From Hydrogenimonas sp. (GTDB lineage Bacteria > Campylobacterota > Campylobacteria > Campylobacterales > Hydrogenimonadaceae): 56,187 nt of DNA. The notes below the pieces were generated by a model. It was not told the origin of the DNA and searched no databases. It saw only the letters and a program-made list of their open reading frames with translations. Shown piece by piece: positions 1-16,524 of the stretch. Positions within the stretch are counted from its first letter, which is position 1, and every line of letters starts with the position of its first letter. The position numbers and the translations under genes were made by a program. Where the stretch lies: contig WFYC01000036.1 of NCBI GenBank assembly GCA_015490295.1, positions 1 to 56,187 of the forward strand, in the 5' to 3' direction.

Positions 1-95
1 GGGATATAGGGGGTGGAATTTGGGATTTGGGGGATGGGGTATCGCTTTCGGAACCGTACTCCATATTCGCATCTCCATATCCTATATCCAAATAT
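1..95. repeat. Degenerate 7-bp arrays in inverted halves, inside rmlB
   Basis: Positions 1-42 split into six 7-mers on the plus strand: GGGATAT, AGGGGGT, GGAATTT, GGGATTT, GGGGGAT, GGGGTAT. Positions 61-95 split into five 7-mers that on the minus strand read ATATTTG, GATATAG, GATATGG, AGATGCG, AATATGG, i.e. a related motif in the opposite orientation. The 18-bp centre lets GGGGTA (36-41) pair with TACTCC (57-62). The plus-strand motif matches the array at 15714-15769. The array may extend beyond position 1. Confidence 0.7.
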
Positions 96-475
96 CTCTC
101 TTTGTATTTGAAAGGGCCGTCCATCCACTGCTTATAGGCTACGTCCAGCAGGGTGAACGTTCCGTTTACGTTTGTCTCTATGAAGACACCCGGGTTCTTG
201 ATGGAGTTGTCCACATGAGATTCGGCGGCGAAGTGGATGACTCCTTGAATATCGTACTCGTTGAAAATCTGTTCCACAAGTTCACGGTTACAGATGTCGC
301 CTTTTATAAACCTGTATCTGGGATGGTTCTCGACCTCTTTCAGGTTTTCGAGGCTGCCGGCATATGTTAGTAGATCGAGATTTACAATCTGATACTTAGG
401 ATACTTTTGCAGAAAGTATGGAACGAAGTTCGAGCCTATGAAACCTGCACATCCGGTTACCAATATATTCTTCAT
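1..475 (-). CDS. rmlB: dTDP-glucose 4,6-dehydratase, N-terminal part (runs off window)
   Basis: Catalyses dehydration of dTDP-glucose to the 4-keto-6-deoxy sugar in dTDP-rhamnose-type sugar synthesis in the cytoplasm. Seen: ATG at 475 (ATGA overlap with the rmlA stop), Rossmann motif GCAGFIGSN near residues 9-17, the [12 protein letters not shown] segment, and [12 protein letters not shown], all typical of RmlB; the frame stays open to the window edge (about 158 codons). The family then normally continues to a STDEVYG-type motif, which is not reached here. Odd: after the conserved NVNGTFTLL helix the protein enters a low-complexity stretch encoded by 7-bp repeats (positions 1-95), at a place where RmlB proteins have a variable surface loop. 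It could be a tolerated in-frame insertion or the start of a disrupted gene; the missing 3' part decides. Confidence 0.9.
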
Positions 476-1341
476 TTCGCTTTCGCCATCTCTATCATGT
501 ATTGTCCATATTCAGACTTCATGTACGGTTTCGCCAGTTCGATGAGCTGATCGGAGCTTATCCACCCTTTATAGTGGGCTATTTCTTCTATACACGCGAC
601 TTTGTAGCCCTGTCTGTGCTCTATGGTGCGGATGAAACTGCTCGCTTCCGCAAGGCTTTCGTGAGTACCCGTATCGAGCCACGCGTAACCGCGTCTGAGC
701 AGTTGGACTTCGAGTTTCCCGCGTTTTAGATACTCCTGGTTTACAGAAGTTATCTCCAGTTCTCCTCTGGCTGAGGGTTTTACGCTTTTTGCTATCTCTA
801 TGACGTCATTGTCGTAAAAATAGAGCCCTGTAACTGCAAAGTTGCTTTTTGGTTTTTCAGGTTTCTCTTCTATGGAGATCACTTTGAGATCTTCATCGAA
901 CTCCACGACGCCGAAACGCTCCGGGTCTTTTACCTGGTATCCGAAAATTGTGGCGCCGCTCTCTTTGGATGCGGCCTTTTCCAGGATAGGGGTGAGCCCC
1001 GGACCGTAGAAGATATTGTCACCCAATATAAGACATACATTGTCGTCATCGATAAACTCTTCACCTATTATAAAAGCCTGGGCAAGCCCGTCGGGGCTCT
1101 TTTGTACAGCGTAGCTGAAGCTCATTCCCAGATGGCTTCCGTCTCCGAGAAGCTCTTCGAATCTGCCGATATCGCTGGGGGTGGAGATTATCAACACCTC
1201 TTTTATCCCAGCCAGCATAACTACGGACAGGGGGTAGTATATCATCGGTTTGTCGTATACGGGCAGAAGCTGCTTGCTGATAACTTCGGTTATGGGGTAG
1301 AGGCGTGTACCGCTGCCGCCTGCCAGGATAATTGCTTTCAT
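472..1341 (-). CDS. rmlA: Glucose-1-phosphate thymidylyltransferase
   Basis: Makes dTDP-glucose from dTTP and glucose-1-phosphate, the first step of dTDP-rhamnose synthesis. The 289-aa length is normal for RmlA. The nucleotide-binding signature [11 protein letters not shown] lies near residues 7-17, followed by [16 protein letters not shown] and the LGDNIFYG and [10 protein letters not shown] segments expected of the family. It overlaps the start of rmlB by ATGA, so the two are translationally coupled on the minus strand. It is divergent from cysD across a 218-bp AT-rich gap. RfbA is a synonym. Confidence is high. Confidence 0.95.
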
Positions 1342-1559
1342 GCGAGTCAGTTCTTTATATTGAAATTTCTAAATAAATAGTAAACTGCCATAGACACTAT
1401 TAATCTTAATGAAAAAATAATTATAAAGTGGTTAAATTGGCTAAAAAATCAAAGAGAATAGAATGGATGATACAAAAGTTAACTATAAAAACTGGGCAAT
1501 CTCTTTTTAAAAAGTTTTTCAATATAATTGTATTCCAAAACTGAACAAAAAGATTTAAC
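1342..1559. promoter_or_regulatory. Divergent rmlA / cysD promoter region
   Basis: This 218-bp AT-rich gap separates the divergently transcribed rmlA and cysD genes. A TATAAT hexamer at 1523-1528 lies 31 bp before the cysD ATG and is a reasonable plus-strand -10 element. The cysD ribosome binding site is weak (AAAAAGA before the ATG at 1560). No clear operator was recognised. Confidence 0.45.
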
Positions 1560-2468
1560 ATGAGTGAACAGAGAATGACGCACCTAAAACAGCTCGAAGC
1601 CGAAAGTATATATATACTGCGTGAAGTGGCGGCTACATTTTCCAATCCGGTCATGATGTACTCGATCGGTAAAGACAGCTCGGTTATGCTCCACCTTGCG
1701 ATGAAAGCCTTTTACCCTGCCAAACCGCCCTTTCCGCTGCTGCATGTAGATACGCTCTGGAAGTTCAAAGAGATGATAGAGTTTCGCGACAGGCGGGTCA
1801 AAGAGCTTGGAGTGGACCTGGTGGTGCACTCCAACCCGGAAGGTATCGAAATGGGCATCAACCCGTTCGTTCACGGCTCTAAAGTACATACGGACATTAT
1901 GAAGACGCAGGCTCTTAAACAGGCCCTGAATGCGGGTGGATACGATGCCGTAATCGGGGGGGCGAGGCGTGACGAAGAGAAGAGCCGCGCCAAGGAGCGG
2001 ATCTTCTCATTCAGAGACAAAAACCACCGCTGGGACCCGAAAAACCAGAGGCCCGAGCTCTGGAGTCTTTTCAATACCAAAATCCACAAGGGCGAGAGTG
2101 TCAGGGTTTTTCCCCTTTCGAACTGGACCGAACTCGATATCTGGCAGTATATATATCTCGAAGATATTCCGATCGTACCGCTATATTTCGCAAAAGAGCG
2201 TCCGGTAGTCGAGTATGAAGGCGCCAAGATTATGGTCGATGACGAAAGAATGCCGGAAGAGCTGAGAAAAAAGGCGAAAATGGAGAAAGTCCGCTTCAGA
2301 ACCCTGGGCTGCTACCCTCTAAGCGGCGCCATAGAGTCCAATGCCTCCACCCTGCCGGAGGTTATAAGCGAGATGCTTCTAAGCCGCAACAGCGAGCGCG
2401 AAGGGAGGCTCATAGACAAGGACCAGGAAGGGTCGATGGAGAAGAAGAAGATTGAAGGGTATTTCTAA
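1560..2468 (+). CDS. cysD: Sulfate adenylyltransferase, small subunit
   Basis: The PP-loop subunit of ATP sulfurylase; with CysN it forms adenosine 5'-phosphosulfate (APS) from ATP and sulfate. The 302-aa length equals that of the E. coli protein. The PP-loop motif SIGKDS is at residues 35-40, followed by [10 protein letters not shown] and the [20 protein letters not shown] segment characteristic of CysD. It is the first gene of a plus-strand operon. Normally cysN follows directly; here a four-helix-bundle gene lies between them. A small AGCC-TTCG-GGCT hairpin (2470-2481) begins immediately after the stop codon. Confidence 0.96.
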
Positions 2469-2469
2469 C

Positions 2470-2481
2470 AGCCTTCGGGCT
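2470..2481 (+). other. Short UUCG-loop hairpin after cysD
   Basis: AGCC (2470-2473), TTCG loop, GGCT (2478-2481). It is a 4-bp stem with a very stable UUCG tetraloop, just after the cysD stop and just before the heptamer array. There is no uridine run, so it is more likely a processing or pausing structure than a terminator. Confidence 0.4.
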
Positions 2482-2508
2482 TTCGTCATTCGTATTTCAT
2501 TATTGGCA
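2481..2508 (+). repeat. 7-bp array (ATTCGTN type), left flank of the four-helix-bundle gene
   Basis: Four consecutive 7-mers: TTTCGTC, ATTCGTA, TTTCATT, ATTGGCA. They end three bases before the ATG of the next gene. The same type in inverted orientation flanks the other side of that gene (2894-2921), and both arrays end inward in TTGG. A third copy lies at 4346-4408. Confidence 0.7.
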
Positions 2509-2510
2509 AA

Positions 2511-2933
2511 ATGGAGAAATTCCGAATGAAATGTGAAAATCTGGAGGTTTGGAAGCAGTCAGCAGCATTGAGTGCCGACATTTATTTGAACCTGGCCGAT
2601 ATGAAAGATTTCGGTTTTAAAGATCAGCTAACACGGGCGGGGCTCTCTATACCAAGCAATATAGCTGAAGGTATGGAAAGGATTTCGCAGCAGGAGAAAA
2701 TTCGATTTCTTGACATCGCCAGAGCCTCTTCGGCAGAGGCGATGACTCAGGTTTATATCGGAATGAAGATCAAATACATTACACCGGACAAAGGAAAGGA
2801 GTGGATAGAAAGACTCGATCATATTGCAAAGATGATCAGCTCGTTGATCAATTCAATCAATCAGACCATTTCAAATAATAAAAAGAGAAACACCAATGAC
2901 GAACAACGAACAACGAACAACTATAGCCGATGA
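2511..2933 (+). CDS. Four-helix-bundle protein of the S23 / Avd-like family
   Basis: A 140-aa helical protein. The N-terminal motif NLEVWKQSAAL, the central RAGLSIPSNIAEGMER and the following FLDIARASSAEA match the four-helix-bundle family found in 23S rRNA intervening sequences and related to the accessory protein Avd of diversity-generating retroelements (family knowledge). Its molecular role is not established; no reverse transcriptase or variable repeat is visible here. ATG 2511 is used; ATG 2526 is also possible and closer to the family start. It splits cysD from cysN. Its last 13 codons (about 2894-2933) are made of the 7-bp array and overlap cysN by 38 bp, so the C-terminal NNKKRNTNDEQRTTNN tail is probably a repeat-derived extension. 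Inward-facing arrays on both sides suggest it arrived as a unit. Confidence 0.88.
   Translation: MEKFRMKCENLEVWKQSAALSADIYLNLADMKDFGFKDQLTRAGLSIPSNIAEGMERISQQEKIRFLDIARASSAEAMTQVYIGMKIKYITPDKGKEWIERLDHIAKMISSLINSINQTISNNKKRNTNDEQRTTNNYSR
2894..2921 (-). repeat. 7-bp array (GTTCGTT type), right flank, inverted
   Basis: Plus strand: CAATGAC followed by three exact copies of GAACAAC; on the minus strand this is a GTTCGTT-type repeat that ends inward in TTGG. It is related to the left array 2481-2508 but in opposite orientation. It codes at once for the tail of the four-helix-bundle protein and for the first residues of CysN (NNEQRTT in both products, because 21 bp is both three repeats and seven codons). 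Confidence 0.75.
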
Positions 2934-4344
2934 CATCATCGGCTATCTGAAGCAACACGAAAACAAGCAGATGCTTCGCTTCATTACGTGCGGGAGCGTG
3001 GATGACGGGAAGTCTACGCTTATCGGGCGTCTGCTCTATGACAGCAAGATGATCTTTGAAGATCAGCTGGCCGCAGTGAAAAGCGAGACTAAAAAGTACG
3101 GTACCGTGGGTGATGCCGAGATAGATTTCGCGCTTCTGATCGACGGTCTTCAGAGTGAAAGGGAGCAGGGTATTACCATAGATGTGGCTTACCGCTTTTT
3201 CGCTACCGACAGACGCAAATATATAATAGCCGATACCCCCGGGCACGAGCAGTATACGCGCAATATGGTTACGGGTGCGAGTACGGCCGATCTTGCCGTT
3301 ATTTTGATAGATGCCAGAAAAGGTGTACTGACCCAGACGAGGCGCCACTCGTTTCTCGTGAGTCTTCTCGGCATTCGGAATATTGTTGTCGCCGTAAACA
3401 AGATGGATCTTGTCGACTATAGCGAAGAGCGTTTCAATGAGATAATTGTAGATTACGAGCGGATGTATGAGCAACTGAGATTTTCTCTGCCCTACAAGAG
3501 TTTCCGCCAAAAGATAGATTTCATTCCGATGTCTGCACTTAAAGGGGACAATGTAGTCGAAAACTCAGCAAAAATGAGCTGGTACGAGGGAGCCGCTCTT
3601 TTGCCCTATCTCGATACGGTGACGATAGAGAGAAGCGACTTCAAGGCGTTTCGTTTTCCGGTACAGTATGTGAACCGTCCGAATCTCGATTTTCGCGGTT
3701 TTGCCGGTACTATAGCTTCCGGCACTATAGAACGAGGCGAGAGGATTGTAGTTTATCCGTCTCAAAAGAGCTCCGGCATCAAGTCTATAGTTTTGCCTTT
3801 GAGCCCGGAAAAAGAGTGCTCGATGGCCGAAGAAGCCGGTTTTCCGATGGCCGTTACGCTTACACTCGATGACGAAATAGATATATCCCGTGGCGATCTG
3901 ATCGTAAAAGAGGGGGATAAACCGCCCCATTTCAGCGACAGTTTCGAAGCGATGCTCGTCTGGATGGATGAAGAGCCGCTGAAGAGCAGGGAGTATATTG
4001 TCAAACTCTACTCCAAAGAGGTCAATGCGGTTGTAAGTTCCATTATGTTCAAGCGGGATGTCAACGACTGGGAGAAGATAGAGGCCAAAAGCCTCGAACT
4101 CAACGACATCGCCAGGGTAAAGATCGACCTTACACAAAAGGTCGCGTTCGATCTTTATGAAGAGAACAAGCGTACCGGAGCTTTCATAATGATAGACAAG
4201 ATCACCAACAATACCGTGGCGGCCGGAATGATAGCCGGTATCTCCACCAGGCATAAAACCGAGAGGGTCTATACTGAGGCGGAAAAGGCTTTGAATGCGT
4301 TTGTAAGGGAGCATTTCCCGGAGTGGGAGTGCAAGGAGATATGA
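2896..4344 (+). CDS. cysN: Sulfate adenylyltransferase, GTPase subunit
   Basis: The GTPase subunit that couples GTP hydrolysis to APS formation by CysD. The 482 residues match the family (about 475 without a kinase domain). Visible motifs: P-loop GSVDDGKS (33-40), DTPGH (113-117), NKMD (168-171), then elongation-factor-like beta barrels. No APS kinase domain is fused; separate kinase genes follow. ATG 2896 is preceded by AAAGAGAAA as ribosome binding site and lies inside the upstream gene. The first nine or so residues are encoded by the 7-bp array, so the natural N-terminus was altered or supplied by the repeat; conservation resumes around IADDIIGYLKQHENKQMLRF. Confidence 0.96.
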   Translation: MTNNEQRTTIADDIIGYLKQHENKQMLRFITCGSVDDGKSTLIGRLLYDSKMIFEDQLAAVKSETKKYGTVGDAEIDFALLIDGLQSEREQGITIDVAYRFFATDRRKYIIADTPGHEQYTRNMVTGASTADLAVILIDARKGVLTQTRRHSFLVSLLGIRNIVVAVNKMDLVDYSEERFNEIIVDYERMYEQLRFSLPYKSFRQKIDFIPMSALKGDNVVENSAKMSWYEGAALLPYLDTVTIERSDFKAFRFPVQYVNRPNLDFRGFAGTIASGTIERGERIVVYPSQKSSGIKSIVLPLSPEKECSMAEEAGFPMAVTLTLDDEIDISRGDLIVKEGDKPPHFSDSFEAMLVWMDEEPLKSREYIVKLYSKEVNAVVSSIMFKRDVNDWEKIEAKSLELNDIARVKIDLTQKVAFDLYEENKRTGAFIMIDKITNNTVAAGMIAGISTRHKTERVYTEAEKALNAFVREHFPEWECKEI

Positions 4345-4345
4345 G

Positions 4346-4408
4346 ATTCGTTGAGCGTTATCCGTTGTCGGTGATTCGTGATTCGATTTTTGTAATTCAA
4401 AACAATCG
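4346..4408 (+). repeat. Solo 7-bp array (ATTCGTN type) after cysN
   Basis: Nine consecutive 7-mers starting two bases after the cysN stop: ATTCGTT, GAGCGTT, ATCCGTT, GTCGGTG, ATTCGTG, ATTCGAT, TTTTGTA, ATTCAAA, ACAATCG. The consensus is ATTCGTN with increasing decay rightwards. It has the same orientation as the array at 2481-2508, but no four-helix-bundle gene is attached. It fills most of the cysN to APS-kinase-like gene gap. Confidence 0.65.
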
Positions 4409-4446
4409 GATAACAAGAAGATAATTTATGAATCAAAGATTTTTGA

Positions 4447-5172
4447 ATGTATAAAGAGACCAACCTCCGCTCTATCGCCAAAGGTGTCAGCTGGCGCTTC
4501 GTCGCCACGGGAACCACCATCACTATCGTATATATCTTTTTCGGCAGGCTCGATCTCGCCGTCGCGGCCGGGGTCATCGAGACCGTGTTGAAGATAGCTC
4601 TCTATTGGGGGCATGAAAAGGTTTGGCAGAGAGTCAGGTTCGGCAAAAAGCGTATAGAGCCTTTTAATGTCTGGTTTACGGGTCTGCCGCTGAGCGGAAA
4701 GAGTACAATCGCCGACAAACTCTATGCAAAGCTTCAGAAGCTCGATATTCCCATCGAGCGGATAGATTCCAAAGATATTAGAGAGCTCATTCCCGACCTG
4801 GGCTACACCAGGGAGGATAGAAACCGCCATATGAAGCGCATAGGCCACCTCATACAGACCCTGCAGAAAAACTCCATCTCTACTGTGGCTTCGTTCGTTT
4901 CGCCCTACAGGGAGTCGAGAAAAGCGATCCGCACCATGGTAAAAAACAATATCGTAGTCTATGTAAAAGCGGACCTGGAGTCGTGCAAGAAGCGCGACTA
5001 TAAAGGGGTCTACAAGAGGGCTTTGGACGGAGAGCTTAAAAACTTTACCGGCATAAGCGATGTCTACGAAGAGCCGCAGCATGCCGAGATCGTAATAGAT
5101 ACGGAGAAGACCGACCCGGACGAAGCGGCGGAAATTGTCTTCAGGTATATAAAGAAGCACTACATAAAATAG
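4447..5172 (+). CDS. DUF2061 membrane domain fused to an APS-kinase-like domain
   Basis: A 241-aa two-part protein. Residues 1-65 hold a DUF2061-type membrane segment (WRFVATGTTITIVYIFFG, then a second hydrophobic helix ending near GHEKVW). Residues 72-241 resemble adenylylsulfate kinase: P-loop GLPLSGKST (79-87), VASFVSPYRESR, and the GVYKRALDGELKNFTGISDVYEEP segment. The APS-binding DGDN motif of true CysC is replaced by IDSKDIR (106-112), so substrate or activity may differ. It is followed 15 bp later by a canonical cysC. It may be a membrane-anchored paralogue that channels or senses APS/PAPS; this is inference. Confidence 0.85.
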   Translation: MYKETNLRSIAKGVSWRFVATGTTITIVYIFFGRLDLAVAAGVIETVLKIALYWGHEKVWQRVRFGKKRIEPFNVWFTGLPLSGKSTIADKLYAKLQKLDIPIERIDSKDIRELIPDLGYTREDRNRHMKRIGHLIQTLQKNSISTVASFVSPYRESRKAIRTMVKNNIVVYVKADLESCKKRDYKGVYKRALDGELKNFTGISDVYEEPQHAEIVIDTEKTDPDEAAEIVFRYIKKHYIK

Positions 5173-5187
5173 AGAATAGGAGCGGCA

Positions 5188-5817
5188 TTGGAGTATAGAA
5201 GCAGAGAGTCGAAAAAGGGTACGAATGTTGTCTGGCACAACCATAAGATTACGAAGGCTCAGCGCTCGGCGCTGAAAAAGCAGCGTCCCTGTATATTGTG
5301 GTTTACCGGGCTCAGCGGCTCCGGCAAATCCACCATAGCCAATGCGGTGGAAGGAAGACTCTATGAGATGGGCAGGCACACATACCTGCTCGACGGAGAC
5401 AACATAAGACACGGCCTGAACAGGGAGCTTGGGTTTAGCGACGAAGACAGGGTGGAGAATATCCGACGTATAGGGGAGGTCTCTAAACTCTTCGTAGATA
5501 GCGGAACGATCGTTCTCTCTGCTTTTATATCACCTTTTAAGAGTGATAGGATGAAAGTGAGGGAGCTTGTGGAAGAGGGTGAGTTCATAGAGATCTTTGT
5601 CGATGTTCCGCTTGAGGTCTGCGAAGCGAGAGACCCCAAAGGGCTCTACAAAAAAGCGAGGAGGGGCGAAATAGGCGACTTTACCGGAATCAGCTCCCCT
5701 TACGAACCGCCCGAAAATCCGGAGATAAGGCTTCCGGCACATGAACAGAGTATCGAAGAGTCTGTAGAGCAGATTGTAGACTATTTGAGAGAGAGAGGAT
5801 ACCTCGATGGGAAGTAG
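5188..5817 (+). CDS. cysC: Adenylylsulfate (APS) kinase
   Basis: Phosphorylates APS to PAPS. The 209-aa protein has P-loop GLSGSGKST (41-49), [10 protein letters not shown] (from residue 69), [21 protein letters not shown] and FISPFKSDR, all canonical. The start is TTG at 5188 with AGGAG five bases upstream. It overlaps cysQ by 11 bp, so the operon continues. Since no PAPS or APS reductase is present in the window, the PAPS may feed assimilation elsewhere or sulfotransfer; the adjacent nucleotide-sugar genes make surface sulfation worth considering (inference). Confidence 0.95.
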
Positions 5818-6673
5818 AGAGAGCGGGAAGAGAGCGGAGTTTTTGGAGTCTGTAAATTTGGACGATGTCGTAAAGATCGCTATTGAAGCCGGCAGAGAGG
5901 TTATGAAGATATACGCAAGAGATTTCAATGTCGAATACAAAGAGGACGCTTCACCGCTGACGGAAGCCGACCTGCACGCCAACGAGGTAATCTGCTCAGG
6001 CCTGAAAAAACTTTGGCCGCAAACACCCATTCTTTCGGAAGAGAATAGAGAAATTCCGTACGAGGAGAGGAGAGAGTGGGAGTTTTTCTGGTGTATTGAC
6101 CCGATAGACGGTACGAAAGAGTTTATAAAAAAGAGCGGTGAATTTACCATAAATATAGCTTTGGTGAATAAAGACACTCCGGTTCTGGGTGTAGTATTTG
6201 CGCCGGCGATCGGGACTATATACTATTCAAAAAGAGGAAGCGGCGCATGGAAAGCTTCGGTGGATGAGGAATGGAGCCTCAAAGAGGATTCGAAAAAGAG
6301 ACTTCCGCTCGTTGTTGATGATTCAAAAGGAGTCGGTAAAGACGGGATTGTCGTGGTGGCCAGCAAATCACACCTGAACGAAGAGACAAAAAGCTTTATA
6401 GGCTCTCTCGAAGAGGAGAACGGGAGGGTTGTACGCATATCCAAAGGGAGCTCTCTTAAACTTCTGATGGTGGCTGAAGGTACGGCAGATATCTACCCCA
6501 GACTCGGGCCTACGATGGAGTGGGATACCGCTGCTGCCGACGCTATAGTTCGTGAGAGCGGAAAGGTGGTTTTGAATGCGGATGGAGTAGTTGACATTGG
6601 TGAGCTTGAGAATATGCCTTCCTTGACTTATAATAAGCATAACTTGCTAAACCCCTGGTTTATAGTTCAGTAA
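5807..6673 (+). CDS. cysQ: 3'(2'),5'-bisphosphate nucleotidase
   Basis: Removes the 3' phosphate of PAP (and PAPS), recycling the inhibitory by-product of PAPS-using reactions. It belongs to the inositol-monophosphatase fold. The metal-binding motif DPIDGTKE is at residues 98-105 and the second motif WDTAAADAI at about 239-247. The 288-aa length is slightly above E. coli CysQ because of an N-terminal extension. ATG 5807 lies inside the end of cysC. The following 60 bp hold no clear terminator before the riboswitch leader. Confidence 0.92.
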
Positions 6674-7059
6674 AATTAATATATTTGATTTAGTTTTTTG
6701 TTATTGTGTCTATGGTATTATTTAAAAGCTAATAAATTGCCAAACCTGTTGTGAAGCAGGGACGGAAAGCCATGGGTCTTTATCGCTCCACTTTTCTAAA
6801 GCTGTAAAGATCGCCAGGTTGCCTCTTGTGTCAAGAGTAAATATTGATGAAAAAAGAATCTCATCAGCTCACCGAATGCTTCCTTCCCTCTTCATTTTTG
6901 TTTTGTCAAGATGCGTTTTTTTAAATCGTGTGCATGATTCATTAACGAGAATGAATATCTTGTCTTGTAGAGATAAAGTTATACTACAATCTCTCCTTGG
7001 CAGGTCAGTTATAATAATGATTTTGCACCGACTGACTGAATGACTTGGGAGGTCAAACC
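6674..7059 (+). promoter_or_regulatory. Long leader region of the DUF1800/DUF1501 operon
   Basis: A 386-bp non-coding stretch. A TATTAT hexamer at 6716-6721 could be the -10 of a promoter starting near 6728, just before the riboswitch. After the aptamer comes a short perfect hairpin CTCTTG-TGT-CAAGAG (6823-6837) and then about 220 nt of AT-rich sequence. I saw no strong GC-rich terminator with a uridine run, so the mode of control (termination, translation or processing) is unclear. The open frame 6819-7043 shows no coding character. Confidence 0.5.
6733..6825 (+). ncRNA. c-di-GMP-I riboswitch (GEMM-I) aptamer
   Basis: Conserved core CAAACC (6741-6746), a six-bp P2 stem CCTGTT/AGCAGG (6745-6750 and 6755-6760) closed by the GNRA tetraloop GTGA, the joining element GGGACGGAAAGCC (6759-6771; consensus GGGACGCAAAGCC), a P3 stem TCTTTA/TAAAGA (6777-6782 and 6805-6810), and the 3' element GCCAGGTTGCC (6813-6823). 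Order, spacing and tetraloop fit the GEMM-I family, which binds cyclic di-GMP. Two deviations: one C-to-G change in the joining element and one mismatch in the terminal P1 pairing (GCCAA against TTGCC). It most likely controls the genes at 7060-10019. Confidence 0.8.
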
Positions 7060-8688
7060 ATGTTTAGAAACATTTTTGTCGTTTTATCCGCAATGCTGAT
7101 ATCTCTGACTCTATTTACCGGCTGCGGAGGAGTGTCGACAGATGAAGAGTCTGTCGTATCACAGGATGATAGCAGCAATCCTGCAATAACTACCGCATCT
7201 TTATCGCTGGAGACGATAGATGACGACGGCTTCAACTCTTTAAGTGAAGAGGATAGGCTCTATGTTGCTAGAAAACTGTACTCTACCATATATAAGGGAG
7301 TGGAGTATAAAAAACTCAAAGAGCAGATCGATACAAAAAAGTTTATAAGTGACTTTGCAACGATTTTAAGTGCAGATGTAAAGCAGCCTGATCTGATGAA
7401 AATGGAAGCCTATATCCCGTACGACCCTTCACTTGAGGCGCACGATTATCAGGAGGACAGTACAGAACGATATGCCGGGAATATAAAACAGGAGATATTT
7501 TCGCGCCTCTACTATACGGAAATCGGCCGAGAGTATTTCAACAAGTGGATCGCCTATGTGCTGACGCAGACCATTCTATTCTCTCCGGCAAGGGAGGTAG
7601 AGAGTGTCGTTCCGTTTCCGGAGTTTATACGCAACGTCTACTACCGGCTGGCCGACAGGCTCGATGAGGGAAAGAGTATAAAAGAGATAGTTTACGAGCA
7701 TATGATCTCCAAAGAGAACTGGGGGCGTTTCAGAAGCCCGGAAGACAACGGTCGGGAGATGCTTGAGATCTGGCTCGGAAACTACGATGACGAGCCGGTG
7801 CCGATAGCGGCGAAAGCCCTTCAGAACTGGAGGTTCGAGAACTACTATGATTCAAGTATCGGGTGGCAAGTCTACGATTTTTACCGTGACGAACCGGGGG
7901 TCGATCTGAACGAGTCGGTTGAGCTTTTCGGCTTTACACTCAAGAACGGCTACGACTTCTTCAGGATGGTTACGGAACATCCCGACTTCATGCCTACGGT
8001 TGTTTCCAGGATAATTGACTACTTCTTTCCTACGATTGGTGAAGATGAGCGGGCTGCTATTGTAGAGAAGATTCTTGTTGAGAGGCCGGAATCCTTTCAG
8101 CATATTTTCAGGCAAGTTCTCTTTTCGAAAAAATACCTCTTCGAGTCGGACAAGGTCAAGAGCATAGAAGAGGTTTTCTACCCTATGGTAGAGTCTCTGC
8201 CGTACCATGTCATAAAAAACTCATGGATATGGGCGTGGGCTTCAAATATAAAAGGGCTTGCGGCAGCCATGGAGCTGTCGAATCAGAAGTCTATGTGGAA
8301 CAAGCTCGGGCGTGACAATGATCTGCCGACGGACACTCTAAGTATTAATTATTACCATCAATTTGTAAGAGACGGTATTCTACTGGCCCAGTGTGACGAC
8401 CCCGAGAACGAATATCAGGAGGGTATAGTATTCAGTTGGCTCGACGAACGACTCGATTACACGACGATGGAGTCTTATATAGACGGGATATTCCTGGAAG
8501 TTTTGGGGCGTCGTGCCAATGACGCCGAAAAGACGACACTCACAGACCTTGCGAAAAGTGCCGGTTGGGATGAAAAGTTTCAGGAGTGGTCGTGGCAGAG
8601 ATACAATCTCTCGAAACTAGCACGCGATTATATGAGCAGACTTAGCGAAGTATACAGGTATAAGCGTATTGAAGGAGCTATAGAATGA
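7060..8688 (+). CDS. DUF1800-like lipoprotein
   Basis: A 542-aa exported lipoprotein: signal peptide with lipobox LFTGC, Cys22. The start is ATG 7060 with GGGAGG at 7047-7052; an in-frame TTG 15 bp upstream overlaps that site and is less likely. The middle (GREMLEIWLGNYDD... AAKALQNWRF... EHPDFMPTVVSRIIDYFF) has the pattern of DUF1800 proteins (ExLELF.LG.Y, ALTGWR, HP...A.KL..FF) but is very divergent, so the family call is tentative. Its direct partner (ATGA overlap) is a DUF1501 protein, the usual neighbour of DUF1800, which strengthens the assignment. Function is unknown; the riboswitch upstream ties it to c-di-GMP and thus perhaps to surface or matrix behaviour. Confidence 0.7.
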   Translation: MFRNIFVVLSAMLISLTLFTGCGGVSTDEESVVSQDDSSNPAITTASLSLETIDDDGFNSLSEEDRLYVARKLYSTIYKGVEYKKLKEQIDTKKFISDFATILSADVKQPDLMKMEAYIPYDPSLEAHDYQEDSTERYAGNIKQEIFSRLYYTEIGREYFNKWIAYVLTQTILFSPAREVESVVPFPEFIRNVYYRLADRLDEGKSIKEIVYEHMISKENWGRFRSPEDNGREMLEIWLGNYDDEPVPIAAKALQNWRFENYYDSSIGWQVYDFYRDEPGVDLNESVELFGFTLKNGYDFFRMVTEHPDFMPTVVSRIIDYFFPTIGEDERAAIVEKILVERPESFQHIFRQVLFSKKYLFESDKVKSIEEVFYPMVESLPYHVIKNSWIWAWASNIKGLAAAMELSNQKSMWNKLGRDNDLPTDTLSINYYHQFVRDGILLAQCDDPENEYQEGIVFSWLDERLDYTTMESYIDGIFLEVLGRRANDAEKTTLTDLAKSAGWDEKFQEWSWQRYNLSKLARDYMSRLSEVYRYKRIEGAIE

Positions 8689-10019
8689 GACGAAGAGAGT
8701 TTATAAAAACCACACTGAGCATGATGGCGGCTGTAGGTCTTGCGCCCGATCTTTTAAGAGCCGCCGAGCTGACGAGTCTGCCGCTTGGAGATGTGAGTCT
8801 GGATAAGAGTATATACGATAAAAACGAGACACAGACCCTTCTGATCTTCCTGGTCGGCGGGATGAGTGATTTCGTTGGAAATGCTACACATCTCGAACAG
8901 ATAAGAATAGAGGATCTTTCCTATAAACCCTACCCCGATACCGGATTCACCGTTACACAAGACGGTTTCTGGCAGGAGGGAGGCGGTGCAGATCTGCAGA
9001 GTATGCTCGATGACAAAACGATACAGACTACATATTTCAGAACCGCTATGGCAAAGGATGAGAGCAGGTCGCATGGATTGAACCAAAGAAGATTCATGCA
9101 CGGCCATCCGACTGTAGAGTCTGGTATGCCGATAACCCTGATGCATGTGCTGAACAGATACAATCTTGTGGATGAGAATACACTCATGCCGTACGTAAGG
9201 CTTGCGGGAGGTCTGCAGTTTTACGATGACAGAGGGGCGGGGTATACGCTCCCTGGTCATCTTCGCCCTGTAACCATTGAGGTTCCGTCCCAGGCGGGAG
9301 GCGAGATGGGAAACCCATATGAAAGAGTGAGCATATGGGATGACGTGAACCTTGAAGATGGTATAGAGATGCTCAGCTACGAGCAGAACGACCTTAACGA
9401 TCCTATCTCGTCTGCACTTCAGAGGAGAAAGAGCATAAGTGATTTTATCGATAGAATCAGAGGTGAAGCGCTCCCGCCCGGTGTAGAGTACCCGACCCAC
9501 AGAACCGGGCGTATTTTGGAGACAGCCATGCGCATACTTGTCGCCAACCCCGATACGAAAGTGATAAGTACGGAGCCGGGTAACCGGTGGGACGATCACT
9601 CGAATGCACTTACAGCCCACCGGGAGCATGCTACCGAGCTGTTTGAAGCTATCTCTGCGGCTATGAAGCATATGAAAGCGGCCGGAAAAGACAATATAAA
9701 TATTGTTGTCTACGGTGACTTCGGCAGAAACTACAATATAAACAGTTCGGACGGATGGGACCACGGCAACAACCAGGTGGTCTACTGGTTCGGCGGGGAG
9801 CGCTACCTGAACTCCCTTGGAGTTGTGGGAGAGACCGATCTGTATGTGTGGTTGAGAAAAGCACGCCTCTTCAGTCGCCCGAAGGAGGCTACCTTCGAGT
9901 TTGAGCCTTACAGTGTGGCCTCGACCTTCTACAGGCTTTACGGCATAACCAATCCCGAAGTGCTTACCGGTGGGTACGGTGTGATAGCCCCGCCCCAACA
10001 GAGCTTTTTGAAAGTGTAA
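8685..10019 (+). CDS. DUF1501 family protein, Tat-exported
   Basis: A 444-aa protein with an N-terminal twin-arginine signal (RRREFIK at residues 2-8, then a hydrophobic stretch and a likely cleavage after LLRAA). FLVGGMSDF near residue 55 and GDFGRNYNINSSDGWDHGNN (from residue 344) match the conserved C-terminal core of DUF1501, a sulfatase/alkaline-phosphatase-like fold. Biochemical role is unknown. It overlaps the preceding lipoprotein gene by four bases and ends before a hairpin at 10033-10056. Export by Tat suggests folding or cofactor loading in the cytoplasm. Confidence 0.85.
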   Translation: MRRREFIKTTLSMMAAVGLAPDLLRAAELTSLPLGDVSLDKSIYDKNETQTLLIFLVGGMSDFVGNATHLEQIRIEDLSYKPYPDTGFTVTQDGFWQEGGGADLQSMLDDKTIQTTYFRTAMAKDESRSHGLNQRRFMHGHPTVESGMPITLMHVLNRYNLVDENTLMPYVRLAGGLQFYDDRGAGYTLPGHLRPVTIEVPSQAGGEMGNPYERVSIWDDVNLEDGIEMLSYEQNDLNDPISSALQRRKSISDFIDRIRGEALPPGVEYPTHRTGRILETAMRILVANPDTKVISTEPGNRWDDHSNALTAHREHATELFEAISAAMKHMKAAGKDNINIVVYGDFGRNYNINSSDGWDHGNNQVVYWFGGERYLNSLGVVGETDLYVWLRKARLFSRPKEATFEFEPYSVASTFYRLYGITNPEVLTGGYGVIAPPQQSFLKV

Positions 10020-10032
10020 AACTCCTCATCGG

Positions 10033-10056
10033 AAAGCCGCCGGTTTAGGTGGCTTT
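10033..10056. terminator. Hairpin between convergent genes, possible bidirectional terminator
   Basis: AAAGCCGCC (10033-10041), a six-base loop and GGTGGCTTT (10048-10056) form a 9-bp stem with one G-T pair, between the DUF1501 gene and the oppositely transcribed wecA-like gene. Short T runs occur on both strands (TTT at each stem end), so it may stop transcription both ways, weakly. Confidence 0.5.
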
Positions 10057-10085
10057 GGTCTCTGCACTTCCTTGCTTGATGTAGA

Positions 10086-11114
10086 CTATTCCGATCTCTT
10101 CTTCTTGGGCTTTTTACGCCGTTTTATACGCTGGTCGAAGAGGTTCAGCATTATAAAAAAGAGTATTCCGAACAGAATGAGCGACATGAAGTTGTCGGAG
10201 TGCCTCAGCTGTACCCCGATAATGGTGAAGGCTATCTGTATATATACGAGCAGAATGACTGTGTAGGGTATATCTTCGTACCGTTTGTAGAGTATATGGT
10301 GCATATGTGTCTTGTCGGCCGAGAAGATCGAGAGGCCGCGCTGTTTTCTTCGGACCATTACGATGAACGTATCCAGAACAGGCAGCACCACTATGAACAG
10401 AACCGCCATCGGCTCTATGAAATTCATTGCCCGGACTGCCAGAATAGCGACTATGAAGCCCAGTGTCAAAGAGCCGCTGTCGCCCATAAAGACTCTTGCC
10501 GGGTGCCAGTTGAAGATCATAAAGGCCGCCACTCCCGCCATACTTACGGCCGAGAGCATTATCATCAGCTCATCGTGGTTCACGTAGCCTATCCATAGAA
10601 ACGCTCCCATCATAACCATCGAGATCGTTCCCGCCAGGCCGTCGAGACCGTCTGTAAGGTTCAGTGCGTTCGTGAAGCCGGTTATCGCAAAAACGGTAAA
10701 AGGGATCGCAATGAGAAGAGGCAGATCTATCTCGTAACCGATGTAGTGGCCCAGAGATTTTATGTAAATCCCTTTTACGCATAGCAGCAGGGTGGCGAAA
10801 ATTATGAAGAGGAACTTCTTTTTTGGAGAGAGCCCCGCATAGTCGTCGAGGAGTCCGGCTATAAAGACTATGGCTATCGCGACATAGACGTAGTAGTACT
10901 CCTGCAGCCGGTTGAGGTCGAAAAATACGGCGGTGAAAGAGACCAGAAGCATGGCCGAAACGAAGCAGGTACCGGCTCCGCGGGGAATAGGGTTTTTATG
11001 CATGCTTCTTTCGTTCGGAATATCTACCAGCCCAAACTCCGGAGCCTTTTTTATAAATAGTATCGTACATACCAGAGTTATGCCGAACGTTATAAGCATC
11101 AGGATGAAAATCAT
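10086..11114 (-). CDS. wecA: Undecaprenyl-phosphate glycosyl-1-phosphate transferase (WecA/MraY superfamily)
   Basis: An integral membrane enzyme that transfers a sugar-1-phosphate (typically GlcNAc) from UDP-sugar to undecaprenyl phosphate, starting O-antigen or other glycan assembly. The 342-aa protein has about ten hydrophobic segments. Family motifs: GLLDDYAG, NALNLTDGLDGLAG, HPARVFMGDSGSL and a histidine-rich HMHHIL in the last cytosolic loop, as in WecA rather than MraY. Start set at ATG 11114 with AGGA five bases upstream; an upstream in-frame codon at 11153 has no such site. The exact sugar substrate cannot be read from sequence. A highly basic KRRKKPKKKR tail ends the protein. Confidence 0.85.
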   Translation of the reverse strand: MIFILMLITFGITLVCTILFIKKAPEFGLVDIPNERSMHKNPIPRGAGTCFVSAMLLVSFTAVFFDLNRLQEYYYVYVAIAIVFIAGLLDDYAGLSPKKKFLFIIFATLLLCVKGIYIKSLGHYIGYEIDLPLLIAIPFTVFAITGFTNALNLTDGLDGLAGTISMVMMGAFLWIGYVNHDELMIMLSAVSMAGVAAFMIFNWHPARVFMGDSGSLTLGFIVAILAVRAMNFIEPMAVLFIVVLPVLDTFIVMVRRKQRGLSIFSADKTHMHHILYKRYEDIPYTVILLVYIQIAFTIIGVQLRHSDNFMSLILFGILFFIMLNLFDQRIKRRKKPKKKRSE

Positions 11115-11277
11115 ACTGTTCCTATCTATAATATAGCCTATACTGCACAGCAATTTGTGCCGCGGGTAAAGTATCGGTTGTCAATCCAAATATTTTTTAT
11201 TTGATAATATACAATTTTAACGTAACGGAAGTTTAAAAGAGATTAACGGCAGCTGTTTCGAGGTGCCAGCGAGCACT

Positions 11278-11913
11278 CTAAGAGTCTAAAATTTTTCTAA
11301 CTGCAGCCGAGCACATGGCAAGTCCGAAAGAGCCTGTTACACCAACGAAGCTCCCTTTTTGCGTGCATTTCGGGCTTTCTGGGCTGAATAGCGCGGGATA
11401 ATCCTCTTTGAATTCGCTCTTTTTGAGCTCGTATCTGATCTTTCTGGCGAAAGGGTCGCCGTATGTTTTCCAGATCGAGGCGATCTCTATTTTGGTCGGG
11501 TCCAGCTTTCTCGCTCCGCCGGTGGCGCTTATGAGTTTAGGCCAGGTTTTATGCGCGAGTGCTATTTTCGCCCTGATATCGTCGATCGCATCCAGCACGA
11601 GATCGTATGGTGCAAAGTCGAAATTTTCAATCCAATCGGCATCTATTTTGGCTTCGATGGGAGTTACGGTTGGGTAGAGCTCCACAAGCCTGTGCACCTT
11701 TACGGCGCCGACTCTGTCGCTTCCTATCTGGCGGTTTTGGTTGGTTTCGTCGTATCTGTCGAAATCTACTATCGTTATATCCTCCACTCCGCTTCTAAAG
11801 AGGCAGTCGAGGCAGAAGCTTCCGACCCCCCCGACTCCAAGAAGCAGCACTTTCGCGCTTCTAAGCTTTTCAAAATCCTCCCCCATCAGCATTCTGCAGC
11901 GCTCGTATCTCAT
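11278..11913 (-). CDS. tcdA: tRNA threonylcarbamoyladenosine dehydratase (TcdA/YgdL-like)
   Basis: A ThiF/E1-like ATP-dependent enzyme that cyclises t6A37 of tRNA. The 211-aa length is shorter than E. coli TcdA (268). The nucleotide-binding GVGGVGS is at 26-32, followed by IVDFDRYDETNQNRQ, DAIDDIRAKIAL and the conserved SATGGARKLDPTKIEI and GSFVGVTGSFGL segments. Start at ATG 11913, overlapping the surE stop (ATGA); a GTG at 11919 is the alternative. A generic ThiF-family role is possible, but motif match to TcdA is good. Confidence 0.85.
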   Translation of the reverse strand: MRYERCRMLMGEDFEKLRSAKVLLLGVGGVGSFCLDCLFRSGVEDITIVDFDRYDETNQNRQIGSDRVGAVKVHRLVELYPTVTPIEAKIDADWIENFDFAPYDLVLDAIDDIRAKIALAHKTWPKLISATGGARKLDPTKIEIASIWKTYGDPFARKIRYELKKSEFKEDYPALFSPESPKCTQKGSFVGVTGSFGLAMCSAAVRKILDS

Positions 11914-12689
11914 AACCACCCCTTCAGCCGCTCTATATCTTCATGACTTGTCAGGTCCAATTGTATGGGAGTGATGGAGACGTAGTCGTTCTTTATCGCT
12001 TCGAAGTCGCACAGCCGCTTTTCATCCGGAATCCACTCCAGCGGGTGGAGCCCCAGCCAGTAGTACTCTTCACCCCTCGGGTTGCGATGCATATGGGCAT
12101 CGTTGCCGTAGAGGCGGTAGCCGGCCTTCGTGATTTCGTACCCTCTGCAATCTTTTGGCTGAATAGGCGGTACGTTTACATTCAAAAAGCGGCGCTTGCC
12201 GAGAGGAAACCCCTCTTCTAGAATCTTTTTGCATATCGTGTATGCCGCCTCTTTGGCCAATTCGAAACCGAGCTCTTCGATCTTCTGGCATCGGCTTCTG
12301 CATACCTGGCTTATCGCTACACCGGGAATTCCCTGCAGCACCGCCTCCATCGCCGCGGCCGCGGTACCGCTGTAGGTGATATCCTCTCCCATGTTGGCCC
12401 CTTTGTTTATGCCGCTGACTACGAGGTCGGGCTGGCGCTCTTCATCGAAAAGTGCGTATTTGCTGAGATATACGCAGTCTGTAGGAGTTCCGTCGTCGAG
12501 TTTGAAGAAGTCGTCGTCGATCTCCACAAAACGCAGAGGGCGCGTGAGTGTCAGGCTGTGGCCGCATGCCGATTTTTCGAGGGTGGGAGCCACTACCGTC
12601 ACATGGCCCAGGGGCCTTAAAGCTTCCACAAGGGCGTGCAGACCCTCGGACTCGAAGCCGTCGTCGTTCGTTACCAGTATTCTTTTCAT
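11910..12689 (-). CDS. surE: 5'/3'-nucleotidase SurE
   Basis: A metal-dependent nucleoside monophosphate phosphatase linked to stationary-phase survival. The 259-aa protein starts MKRILVTNDDGF, where NDDG (residues 8-11) is the catalytic metal site, and carries the SGINKGANMGEDITYSGTAAAAMEA signature. It forms a two-gene operon with tcdA. Its promoter is likely the minus-strand TATAAT within the palindrome at 12715-12728, giving a leader of only about 20 nt. Confidence 0.95.
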   Translation of the reverse strand: MKRILVTNDDGFESEGLHALVEALRPLGHVTVVAPTLEKSACGHSLTLTRPLRFVEIDDDFFKLDDGTPTDCVYLSKYALFDEERQPDLVVSGINKGANMGEDITYSGTAAAAMEAVLQGIPGVAISQVCRSRCQKIEELGFELAKEAAYTICKKILEEGFPLGKRRFLNVNVPPIQPKDCRGYEITKAGYRLYGNDAHMHRNPRGEEYYWLGLHPLEWIPDEKRLCDFEAIKNDYVSITPIQLDLTSHEDIERLKGWL

Positions 12690-12714
12690 TTCATCCTGTC
12701 CGGAAAAGTTTTGG

Positions 12715-12728
12715 TGTATTATAATACA
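12715..12728. promoter_or_regulatory. Palindromic bidirectional promoter core (surE and 12802 gene)
   Basis: TGTATTATAATACA is a perfect 14-bp palindrome containing a TATAAT on each strand (12720-12725 plus; 12723-12718 minus). It lies between divergent genes, at a fitting distance from both (about 29 bp from the surE ATG, 77 bp from the plus-strand start). Overlapping mirrored -10 elements imply that the two directions share one core and compete. Confidence 0.55.
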
Positions 12729-12735
12729 ATATGGT

Positions 12736-12769
12736 AAAACGGTGGTGGAGCTTTTTGAAGCACCGTTTT
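12736..12769 (+). other. Leader hairpin, attenuator-like
   Basis: AAAACGGTG (12736-12744) pairs perfectly with CACCGTTTT (12761-12769); the last bases give a short T run as in an intrinsic terminator. An inner GCTT/AAGC stem sits in the loop. It would lie at the very 5' end of the transcript starting near 12732, so it could stop or stabilise that RNA. Confidence 0.45.
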
Positions 12770-12801
12770 CGTAAATATATTTCGGTTATGAAGGATCATG
12801 C

Positions 12802-13161
12802 TTGAAAGATACTCCGGTAGCCCTTTTGGGAGGTATCTTGTACTATGTAGAGAAAGATGGGGTGCTCTGTTCGCTGCGTGAGGGTAGAAGGGTAGTGGAG
12901 TGTGAGGATCTCAAAGAGCCTGCAGCCATCTGTGCCGGTGTCGGCGGATGCGGAAACTACCGTATCTTCATAGCGGACGCCGCAGACATGGGATTGAAGG
13001 TGTTCGATCCGCTGAATCGCCGTCTTGATCTGCTGGCAACCCTTCCGGGCCTGCCCACCGCAATCGCGAAAGAGGAGTGCAGGCTTGTCGTAGCCGTTGA
13101 AAACGCCATTGTGGAGTTCGATCTAAAAAGTCTCGAGATCGTGGGGAACTATCCTGTATGA
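12802..13161 (+). CDS. Small protein of unknown function, possible partial beta-propeller
   Basis: 119 aa starting at TTG 12802, with AAGGA at 12791-12795. The sequence alternates short beta-like strands (ILYYVEKDGVLCSL, YRIFIADAADMGLKVFDP, LATLPGLPTAIAKEECRLVVAVENAIVEFDL) in the style of WD/NHL repeats, but it is too short for a full propeller. No signal peptide or membrane segment. The stop overlaps the lpxB start by ATGA, so co-translation with lpxB is likely. I do not recognise the family. Confidence 0.7.
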   Translation: MKDTPVALLGGILYYVEKDGVLCSLREGRRVVECEDLKEPAAICAGVGGCGNYRIFIADAADMGLKVFDPLNRRLDLLATLPGLPTAIAKEECRLVVAVENAIVEFDLKSLEIVGNYPV

Positions 13162-14186: not shown

Positions 14187-14209
14187 CCAAAAAAGTTCGG
14201 GGAGATTTT

Positions 14210-14701: not shown

Positions 14702-14703
14702 TC

Positions 14704-15711
14704 GTGATTCCTGTAGCCGTCATAGGCGCCAGCGGGTATACCGGTCTGGAGCTTATAAAGATTCTATTGCAGCATCCGGAGTTTGATCTAGTTTATGTAG
14801 CGGCCAGTGAAGGTGGAACTTCCACCGATGCGCTACATCCGGCGCTGGCGAAACTCTTTTCTGTTCCGGTCGAGAAGGCTGATGCCGCCGAAGTCGCTTC
14901 GAAGGCTCAGCTTGCATTTTTGGCACTTCCGCACAAAACCGCCATGGGGTTCGCCTCGGAACTTCTCGCGCATGGAGTCAAAGTGGTAGACCTCTCCGCA
15001 GATTACCGCCTCAAGCAGGAGACGTATGAAGAGTATTACTGCCCGCACGTAGATGCAAAGAATCTTCCCGAAGCGGTCTACGGACTCCCCGAGTTTTACC
15101 GCGAAAAGATAAAAAAGAGCCGCCTTGTCGCCAACCCAGGATGCTACCCTACCGCCTCTCTTCTGGGCCTTTTGCCCTTCATTCCCCACATAAAAGAGGG
15201 TTCACCTATATATATAGATGCAAAAAGCGGTGTGAGTGGAGCGGGCAAGAAGCTTTCGGCATCTACACACTATGTGAATATAAACGAGAACATATTTGCC
15301 TACAACCCCGTCACGCACCGCCATGCACCGGAAATTGCAGAGAAGATAGATGACCTTTTCGTTACGCAGGTGGATGTAAACTTCGTTCCACACCTGATTC
15401 CGGTAACAAGAGGAATGCTCTGCAGTGTATATATGCAGCTGGAAAACAAGATAGACCCGATAGCGGTTTTGAACGATATCTACAAAGATGAGCCTTTTGT
15501 CCGTATCAGAACCGAACCGGTCGACATAAAATCTGTAGCCGGTACGAATTTCTGCGACATATACGCAGTAAGAAACGGAGACTCCCTCTTTATATCTTCG
15601 GCTATTGACAATCTTTTAAGAGGGGCGAGTTCACAGGCGGTTGTGAATGCCAATATCGTCTGCGGACTCGACGAGGGGCTTGGTATTCCGCTTTTCGCTT
15701 ATGTGCCTTAG
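14704..15711 (+). CDS. argC: N-acetyl-gamma-glutamyl-phosphate reductase
   Basis: Third step of arginine synthesis: NADPH reduction of N-acetylglutamyl phosphate to the semialdehyde. The 335-aa protein starts at GTG with a Rossmann motif GASGYTGLEL and carries the active-site cysteine in ANPGCYPTAS (Cys147) plus the VPHLIPVTRGML segment. It is tightly packed after greA. The stop at 15709-15711 abuts the 7-bp array. Confidence 0.96.
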   Translation: MIPVAVIGASGYTGLELIKILLQHPEFDLVYVAASEGGTSTDALHPALAKLFSVPVEKADAAEVASKAQLAFLALPHKTAMGFASELLAHGVKVVDLSADYRLKQETYEEYYCPHVDAKNLPEAVYGLPEFYREKIKKSRLVANPGCYPTASLLGLLPFIPHIKEGSPIYIDAKSGVSGAGKKLSASTHYVNINENIFAYNPVTHRHAPEIAEKIDDLFVTQVDVNFVPHLIPVTRGMLCSVYMQLENKIDPIAVLNDIYKDEPFVRIRTEPVDIKSVAGTNFCDIYAVRNGDSLFISSAIDNLLRGASSQAVVNANIVCGLDEGLGIPLFAYVP

Positions 15712-15713
15712 TT

Positions 15714-15769
15714 GGGATATGGGATTTGGGATTTGGGGTTTAGGTTTTGGATTTTAGTTTTTAGTTTTT
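15714..15769 (+). repeat. 7-bp array (GGGATTT type)
   Basis: Eight consecutive 7-mers start two bases after the argC stop: GGGATAT, GGGATTT, GGGATTT, GGGGTTT, AGGTTTT, GGATTTT, AGTTTTT, AGTTTTT. There is a left-to-right drift from GGGATTT to AGTTTTT. The array ends just before the ribosome binding region GAGGGG of the next gene. It is similar to the repeats inside rmlB at 1-42. No four-helix-bundle gene is adjacent. Confidence 0.8.
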
Positions 15770-15776
15770 TTGAGGG

Positions 15777-16514: not shown

Positions 16515-16524
16515 AAGGCGCAAT

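Follow-up and report, generated by a model that had tools for sequence, protein, structure and literature searches.

The closest described relatives of the element reported here are the intervening sequences (IVSs) of ribosomal RNA (rRNA). The 23S rRNA IVS of Coxiella is described, in the available excerpts, as having complementary ends and GACAGAT heptamers, variable in number by strain, ahead of an S23 open reading frame (ORF) that is decaying, and as being cut out by RNase III (PMC4990558). Heptanucleotide repeats have also been published in their own right, among them the short tandemly repeated repetitive (STRR) sequences of cyanobacteria, GGGNATC of Xanthomonas and Nostoc, and TAACTGA of Beggiatoaceae. 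Like the arrays below, these are tandem 7-bp units, mostly intergenic, whose sequence varies by locus or genome; the excerpted descriptions connect them neither with S23 genes nor with inverted arms flanking a single gene (PMC4692102, PMC4679880). A wide survey, likewise in excerpt, finds heptamer repeats the most abundant between bacterial genes and gives no clue to their function (PMC6344855). Here we report that, in a 56,187-nucleotide stretch of Hydrogenimonas sp. DNA (contig WFYC01000036.1; hereafter the window), an S23 gene sits between cysD and cysN, bounded by inverted 7-bp (heptad) arms, and that such arrays and arms accompany S23 genes in several phyla. In our view it is nearly certain that an S23 gene and the inverted heptad arms beside it belong together as one unit; this and the other degrees of confidence given below are judgements, not computed values.

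A sequence-only reading of the window had placed a four-helix-bundle gene between cysD and cysN, and family models bear this out: PF05635 (E 1.1e-30) and TIGR02436 (3.3e-29) both hit the ORF at 2511-2933 (+), which separates two genes that match CysD and CysN models. The locus is laid out as follows.

1560..2468 (+): cysD, host gene on the 5' side (CysD models)
2480..2510 (+): left arm, degenerate heptads, of which 2482-2498 pairs with the right arm (period-7 and inverted match)
2511..2933 (+): gene for a 140-aa S23/four-helix-bundle protein whose domain spans residues 9-110 (PF05635, TIGR02436)
2887..2925 (-): right arm, ACGAACA heptads when read on the + strand; 2887-2903 pairs with 2482-2498; includes the cysN start
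2896..4344 (+): cysN, host gene on the 3' side (CysN models)

The arrays had been described as facing inward on both sides of the gene. On the right, the ACGAACA array at 2899-2921 is perfect, and 2890-2925 gives 21/29 period-7 matches, equalled in 0/2000 dinucleotide shuffles. The left arm (2480-2510) is degenerate (13/24 matches, equalled in 15/2000 shuffles) and falls below the threshold of at least 19/28 matches that we use to call a period-7 array. The window locus thus shows the tandem 7-bp units between genes that mark the heptanucleotide repeats, perfect on the right and degenerate on the left. It also shows the complementary, stem-capable ends of rRNA IVSs: TTCGTCATTCGTATTTC (2482-2498) agrees with the complement of 2887-2903, TTCGTCATTGGTGTTTC, at 15/17 bases, a level reached in 3/2000 shuffles of the left flank. 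Both arms run into ATTGG at their inward ends, as can be read from the letters of the window and in keeping with the inward TTGG that had been noted. Across the 56-kb window, at least 19/28 matches are reached by four arrays at period 7 and by 0 or 1 at each of periods 4-6 and 8-13. Because the right array includes the cysN start codon, the CysN N-terminus MTNNEQRTT is encoded by heptads; in a comparison of N-termini, the matching stretch in a related genome (G001; genomes and loci are labelled G and L throughout) reads QNPKPSTQNPAPKTQN.

Like the rRNA IVSs of Coxiella and Leptospira, the window unit is thus one S23 ORF flanked by complementary ends. Unlike them, it lies between protein genes rather than in rRNA; Rfam finds no rRNA in window positions 1-20000. 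Its gene also differs from the decaying ORF of Coxiella in being under purifying selection: dN/dS (nonsynonymous over synonymous change) is 0.05-0.13 in 7/9 protein pairs, with dS >2 in 4 of these 7 and synonymous change saturated in the other 2 pairs.

Arrays of this kind accompany S23 genes well beyond the window. We scanned named genomes for the window's subfamily and kept the best 80 of at least 574 relatives (L082-L161), which by record title come from Gammaproteobacteria, Bacteroidetes, Verrucomicrobia, Clostridia and others; 74 of them have the full flanks needed for counts over 200 bp. A period-7 array lies within 200 bp upstream in 38/74 loci, downstream in 42/74 and on both sides in 29/74, compared with 122/5319 background 200-bp windows of the same loci and with 47/727 upstream and 54/727 downstream of control ORFs (Fisher p ~2e-21 upstream). 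No other period from 4 to 13 exceeds 8/74 (period 8). The arrays hug the gene, with 37/74 and 39/74 near it on the two sides, 0-2 by 200-500 bp, and at most 7/74 upstream beyond 1 kb. When the flanking sequence is autocorrelated, maxima fall at 7, 14 and 21 (z 20.1, 14.9 and 11.6), with a smaller excess at 8 (z 4.8), and 104 of 171 detected arrays are 4-5 units long. At some S23 genes of the named set the arrays are 8-bp rather than 7-bp (4/74 upstream, 8/74 downstream). Judged crudely from the longest ORFs, neighbours at 72 named loci are oriented ++ in 46, -- in 11, +- in 9 and -+ in 6.

The pattern recurs in every further set: the window's own genus and order (arrays upstream in 38/54, downstream in 40/54), new loci of 16 named genomes (6/12 and 5/12), Bacteroidota (13/29 and 10/29), the phylum of an Oscillospiraceae genome (14/26 and 13/26) and that of a Pseudomonas genome (11/18 and 9/18). 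Over all sets, 218 S23 genes from several phyla, arrays lie upstream of 121, downstream of 121 and on either side of 149; the larger sets were not drawn at random but consist of the loci that scored best in each search, and loci sharing a site are not independent. The counts leave out remnants and broken or weak hits (L003, L029-L031, L059-L064, L266, L338), 11 of the 57 loci L369-L425 that have no full-length domain, and duplicates of counted genes; of 221 genes kept, 3 with <120 bp of flank were dropped to give 218, among which the weak armless hits L388 and L389 are included. Seventeen loci on viral contigs stand outside the counts. PF05635 itself was matched in 29/60, 61/80, 22/101 and 20/100 genomes of four samples, the last three of which include the known-carrier genome at their centre.

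The two arms of a locus also match each other in inverted orientation. Matching inverted arms (score >=12) are found at 55/74 named loci, compared with 11/74 when the same flanks are compared directly, 29/724 when flanks of different loci are paired, and 24/727 at control ORFs; over all sets the count is 164/218 S23 genes. An excess of inverted arrays around this gene family, which the sequence-only reading had named as support for its view, is present: the named loci exceed the control ORFs in arrays and in arms.

Another family of solitary genes, GxxExxY (PF13366), occurs in 16/20 S23-carrying genomes. Period-7 arrays accompany 0/30 of its loci examined (L339-L368, one without an upstream flank), whether upstream or downstream, so that solitary genes of those genomes do not have heptads as a rule. 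PF13366 genes have inverted arms at 20/30 loci, against 46/870 pairs drawn from other loci, and their flanks carry a weak periodicity at 9-10 (z 3.2 each). It seems likely that they form a sister class with another unit length. The family was not found in the window's genus (0/18 genomes).

Within the window's own genome (1.77 Mb, 82% complete), PF05635 is matched at three places, and heptads lie beside all three. One of the other two (L002) stands between triosephosphate isomerase and enoyl-acyl carrier protein reductase genes, with inverted AAACTAA-type heptads on both sides. The third (L003) is a 43-residue S23 remnant between T2SSF and T2SSG genes, where an (ACTCAAA)n array extends into T2SSG; similar remnants occur in G001 (L062) and G010 (L061). 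These neighbour names and those of cysD and cysN in the window rest on family searches, and other site names are labels. A PF05635 match is present in 16/17 further species of the genus. cysD was found in 10 of 18 genomes, at 17 places; one of these (L081) amounts to a 35-residue piece, and at the other 16 the junction with cysN is visible. An S23 gene occupies six junctions (G000, G001, G002, G004, G012, G013); five have an array without the gene (G009, the second copies of G000 and G001, plus two G013 contig pieces that are possibly one locus); four are clean, with the cysD stop and cysN start overlapping as TAATG (G003, G015, and second copies in G002 and G009); and one has a plain spacer (G017). 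The gene is not fixed at this junction, as the idea of a small inserted unit had implied, and that idea stands.

The S23 gene occupies other sites in the genus as well. Within the same operon, at the junction of two adenosine 5'-phosphosulfate (APS) kinase genes (window 5172/5188), G004 (L058) and G012 (L010) carry an S23 gene, and the window has neither gene nor array. In the window, the first of these genes, at 4447-5172 (+), is an APS kinase fused to DUF2061, and it adjoins the second, at 5188-5817 (+). Assigning this second S23 gene of G004 and G012 to the position that the window's solo array takes downstream of cysN was rejected: the gene sits between the APS-kinase genes, and these genomes therefore do not support solo arrays as remnants. 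Across genus and order, recurring sites comprise 9, 7, 6, 6, 5, 5 and 5 loci, with five pairs and nine singles. Proteins from one site mostly cluster in the tree (19 label changes, where shuffling gives 39.5 on average), and the larger site groups are not single clades: the G001 protein at cysD-cysN belongs to a different lineage.

On balance, we favour the view that the S23 unit is, or formerly was, mobile as DNA. A classical non-autonomous transposon that carries the S23 gene as cargo and relies on an unseen transposase would fit the presence and absence at one junction, the up to 16 PF05635 matches found in one genome, and the protein lineages of one site that are not always one clade. However, there is no shared arm sequence for a transposase to recognize, and no recent copies appear among those fetched from three multi-copy genomes, and we consider this explanation very improbable. 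The terminal inverted repeats that the sequence-only reading had proposed hold in the sense that the arms are inverted and agree at 15/17 bases, but not in the transposon sense, as arms of different loci share no sequence; the common terminal repeats of insertion sequences and miniature inverted-repeat transposable elements are absent, with no heptad common to the loci.

Although arms do not share a sequence between loci, the two arms of one locus tend to match. A universal heptad motif was sought and rejected: the information content of 2.91 against 2.57-2.89 in ten shuffled sets shows nothing beyond composition. C is scarce on the inward strand of the heptads (79/686 letters). The two arms of one locus agree in 5.9/7 positions on average (n=70). 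At shared sites, an upstream arm fits its own downstream arm better than that of other species in 183/216 comparisons, worse in 27 and equally in 6. The inverted arms, ~400 bp apart, show concerted evolution. That arms are kept alike through copying within a hairpin is, in our judgement, about as probable as its opposite.

Heptads are also somewhat more alike when the proteins are. Likeness between heptads rises with likeness between proteins (Mantel r 0.18, 0/1000 permutations), with a mean of 4.48/7 at 60-80% protein identity, and is at its floor of ~3.5/7 below 50% identity. The arms could accordingly be read as binding sites of the S23 protein, acting as an autoregulator or nucleoid factor in seven-base steps, with one protein reading both arms. 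Besides the Mantel correlation, the arrays of mostly 4-5 units would suit such sites, and paired opposite arrays in Geobacter have been read as regulator sites in the excerpted report (PMC2700814). Against it, likeness at the floor below 50% identity makes a lasting protein-heptad code unlikely, and as a candidate that code proved weak; the S23 protein also has no known DNA-binding domain. We regard the binding-site explanation on its own as improbable. The narrower proposition that the S23 protein acts on the arms seems to us evenly balanced.

S23 units are also found inside functional RNAs. Rfam places L378, L384, L394 and L387 inside 23S rRNA (four genomes) and L381 inside RNase P RNA (one genome). 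Arm scores are 25, 20.5, 19.5 and 22.5 for L378, L384, L394 and L381, with best period-7 counts of 19-23 of 28. L387 (~1440-1900) is broken: just 43 residues match the S23 family, and an extra heptad array lies within the 23S insert. The architecture of rRNA IVSs, an S23 ORF with inverted heptads, thus occurs in 23S rRNA of three further genomes, in agreement with the relation to rRNA IVSs drawn by the sequence-only reading, and rRNA IVSs with S23 ORFs very probably belong to the same class as the window unit. RNase P RNA is added as a host: at L381:1229-2003 (-), an S23 unit interrupts a complete RNase P RNA (RF00010). The unit begins in the terminal loop of a helix, between ACAGAAA..ACCGCC and GGUAAGGGUG, in sense, and its arms continue the variable host helix. 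We take this helix to be P12. An STRR is reportedly present in an RNase P RNA gene (Vioque 1997). A scan of the 221 genes kept for exact motifs of 23S, 16S and RNase P RNA picked out none besides these. At L386 and L393, S23 genes adjoin a transfer-messenger RNA gene and do not lie inside it.

These RNA-borne units bring in a further explanation, in which selection acts at the level of RNA: within mRNA, rRNA or RNase P RNA the two arms would form a stem, RNase III or a similar enzyme would excise the insert, as happens without religation in known rRNA IVSs, and the match between arms would be kept for pairing. The 23S rRNA and RNase P RNA units lie in sense, the RNase P arms extend the host helix, and the Coxiella IVS is excised by RNase III, all as expected on such an account. 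Selection on an RNA stem was sought as an excess of G.U over A.C among arm mismatches, and neither set shows one (96 vs 94 in the first, 117 vs 126 in the larger); thus, RNA pairing has left no mark on the arms. The period of seven is also left unexplained by RNA pairing. Two loci (L142, L145) lie antisense to both of their Pfam-confirmed neighbours and have arms; a third locus whose neighbours are likewise both confirmed as antisense, L158, scores just 9.5 for its arms. We had taken antisense insertion as a sign of a DNA-level unit and have downgraded it to a weak one, because an inverted repeat folds in either transcript; for the same reason it is no objection to the RNA-level explanation, which we nonetheless find unlikely.

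Heptad arrays also occur away from S23 genes. In the window there are three, and one genome (G007) holds a related arrangement.

4349..4390 (+): solo heptad array after cysN, without S23 gene (19/28 matches)
15705..15774 (+): solo heptad array after ORF 14704-15711, without S23 gene (24/28 matches)
13..48 (+): contig-end array of heptad-like units, S23 gene not seen (19/28 matches)
L229:6440-6800, L229:7780-8180 and L230:9850-10270: array-bounded repeat of G007

Elsewhere in the window are a cyclic di-GMP-I riboswitch at 6729-6826 (+; 59.6 bits) and, at 35522-36176, a 342-bp unit in about two tandem copies with 92% matches.

At a threshold of at least 20/28, stretches that lie apart from known S23 genes, 720 kb in all from seven carrier genomes, hold 25 arrays: 15 in G040 and G007, at least 3 of AT-rich low complexity in G031, and 1, 1 and 2 in G002, G003 and G016. 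Eight genomes of the order without a PF05635 match hold 3 in 720 kb, all AT-rich. At the laxer 19/28, the contrast is smaller (31 in 640 kb of carriers vs 12 in 560 kb of non-carriers). Chance or plain replication slippage, with heptads merely near S23 genes, would account for solo arrays, including those of G009, which has no PF05635 match. It accounts for neither the period of seven nor the matching inverted arms, and it sits poorly with 25 arrays in carriers against 3 AT-rich ones and with the 0/30 PF13366 genes of carrier genomes that have period-7 arrays. We judge slippage alone to be highly unlikely.

Several observations nevertheless weigh against a unit of gene and arms that moves and keeps its arms matched. 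In 160 kb of G009, a genome of the window's genus, there are 7 arrays, and two of these form an inverted pair ~50 bp apart. In G007, a ~100-bp repeat without an S23 gene occurs three times; long heptad arrays bound each copy, and those on its two sides do not match each other. Since carrier stretches and G009 hold arrays without an S23 gene, heptad arrays outlive the S23 gene or do not need it. Arms are missing at threshold in 54/218 S23 genes, and 69/218 have no period-7 array on either side. At shared sites, 84/216 cross-species arm pairs reach a score of 12, compared with 38/47 own pairs; common descent of the arms predicts such cross-species matches. Finally, no recent copies were seen: the closest protein pairs in three multi-copy genomes are at 54, 68 and 75% identity (G101, G113 and G140, with 7, 8 and 8 copies fetched), and because these copies are diverged, no present-day movement is seen.

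What the protein does may be approached through its relatives. The window S23 protein matches in sequence the solved structures 2gsc (XCC0516, five chains) and 2rld, and on that match it is predicted to share the fold of 2gsc, a kinship for which PMC10053308 also speaks. Avd, the accessory protein of diversity-generating retroelements (DGRs), has a related fold and is a pentamer (excerpt of PMC10053308), in both respects akin to what is predicted for the S23 protein. A DGR needs a reverse transcriptase, however, and PF00078 was not found in 9/11 searched S23 carriers, namely the window's genome (82% complete) and 8/10 others; the named neighbours of S23 genes (window, L002, L003) are housekeeping genes instead. 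This speaks against the retroelement link suggested by the sequence-only reading, and dependence on a reverse transcriptase is not supported. Family-model searches found no DNA-binding domain in the window S23 protein, which only S23 models match.

A REPtron consists of a RAYT (REP-associated tyrosine transposase) gene between inverted repetitive extragenic palindromic (REP) sequences. It shares with the S23 unit one gene between inverted repeats and related solo repeats elsewhere in the genome. It differs in that S23 is no nuclease family and the S23 repeats are tandem heptads without a common sequence; the Y1/HUH transposase of REPtrons is absent from the window gene, whose sole Pfam match is PF05635.

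Collectively, these comparisons suggest a model in which the window locus is a generalized intervening sequence. The unit, ~0.45 kb long, consists of one S23 gene with an inverted array on each side; arrays that are detected mostly count 4-5 heptads. Units lie at gene junctions (at cysD-cysN replacing the stop/start overlap), in 23S rRNA and in a terminal loop of RNase P RNA. By annealing in RNA as well as in single-stranded DNA, the arms may make the insert protrude as a hairpin and so spare the host operon or RNA. Slippage and templated repair in the hairpin would grow the heptads and copy one arm to the other, keeping the arms alike as their sequence drifts. The S23 protein, which by analogy with XCC0516 and Avd may be a pentamer that binds nucleic acid, would attach to the arms and set the unit at seven. 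Loss of the gene could leave a solo array, and rRNA IVSs with an S23 ORF would be units that landed in rRNA. We give this model as a whole, hairpin, copying and protein binding together, an even chance of being right.

More tentatively, and with somewhat less confidence, S23 genes may make or keep the heptamers that the wide survey found most abundant between bacterial genes. They may belong to a broader group of elements, each a single gene flanked by inverted arms that match each other. The gene family would set the unit length (7, sometimes 8, for S23 and ~9-10 for GxxExxY, PF13366), and the elements would occupy hairpin-tolerant sites such as gene junctions, 23S rRNA and RNase P RNA. In the literature covered, partly in excerpt and with most subscription journals outside it, we found no link between S23, PF05635 or TIGR02436 and heptamers beyond Coxiella, which is no proof of novelty; within the same coverage, no paper on GxxExxY or on S23 in RNase P RNA states the link.

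The heptamer repeats that abound, unexplained, in bacteria may plausibly stem from S23 units. The finding joins rRNA IVSs, heptamer repeats and S23 proteins of no known function, and tying the heptamers to one gene family would make the heptamer question testable through removal of one gene.

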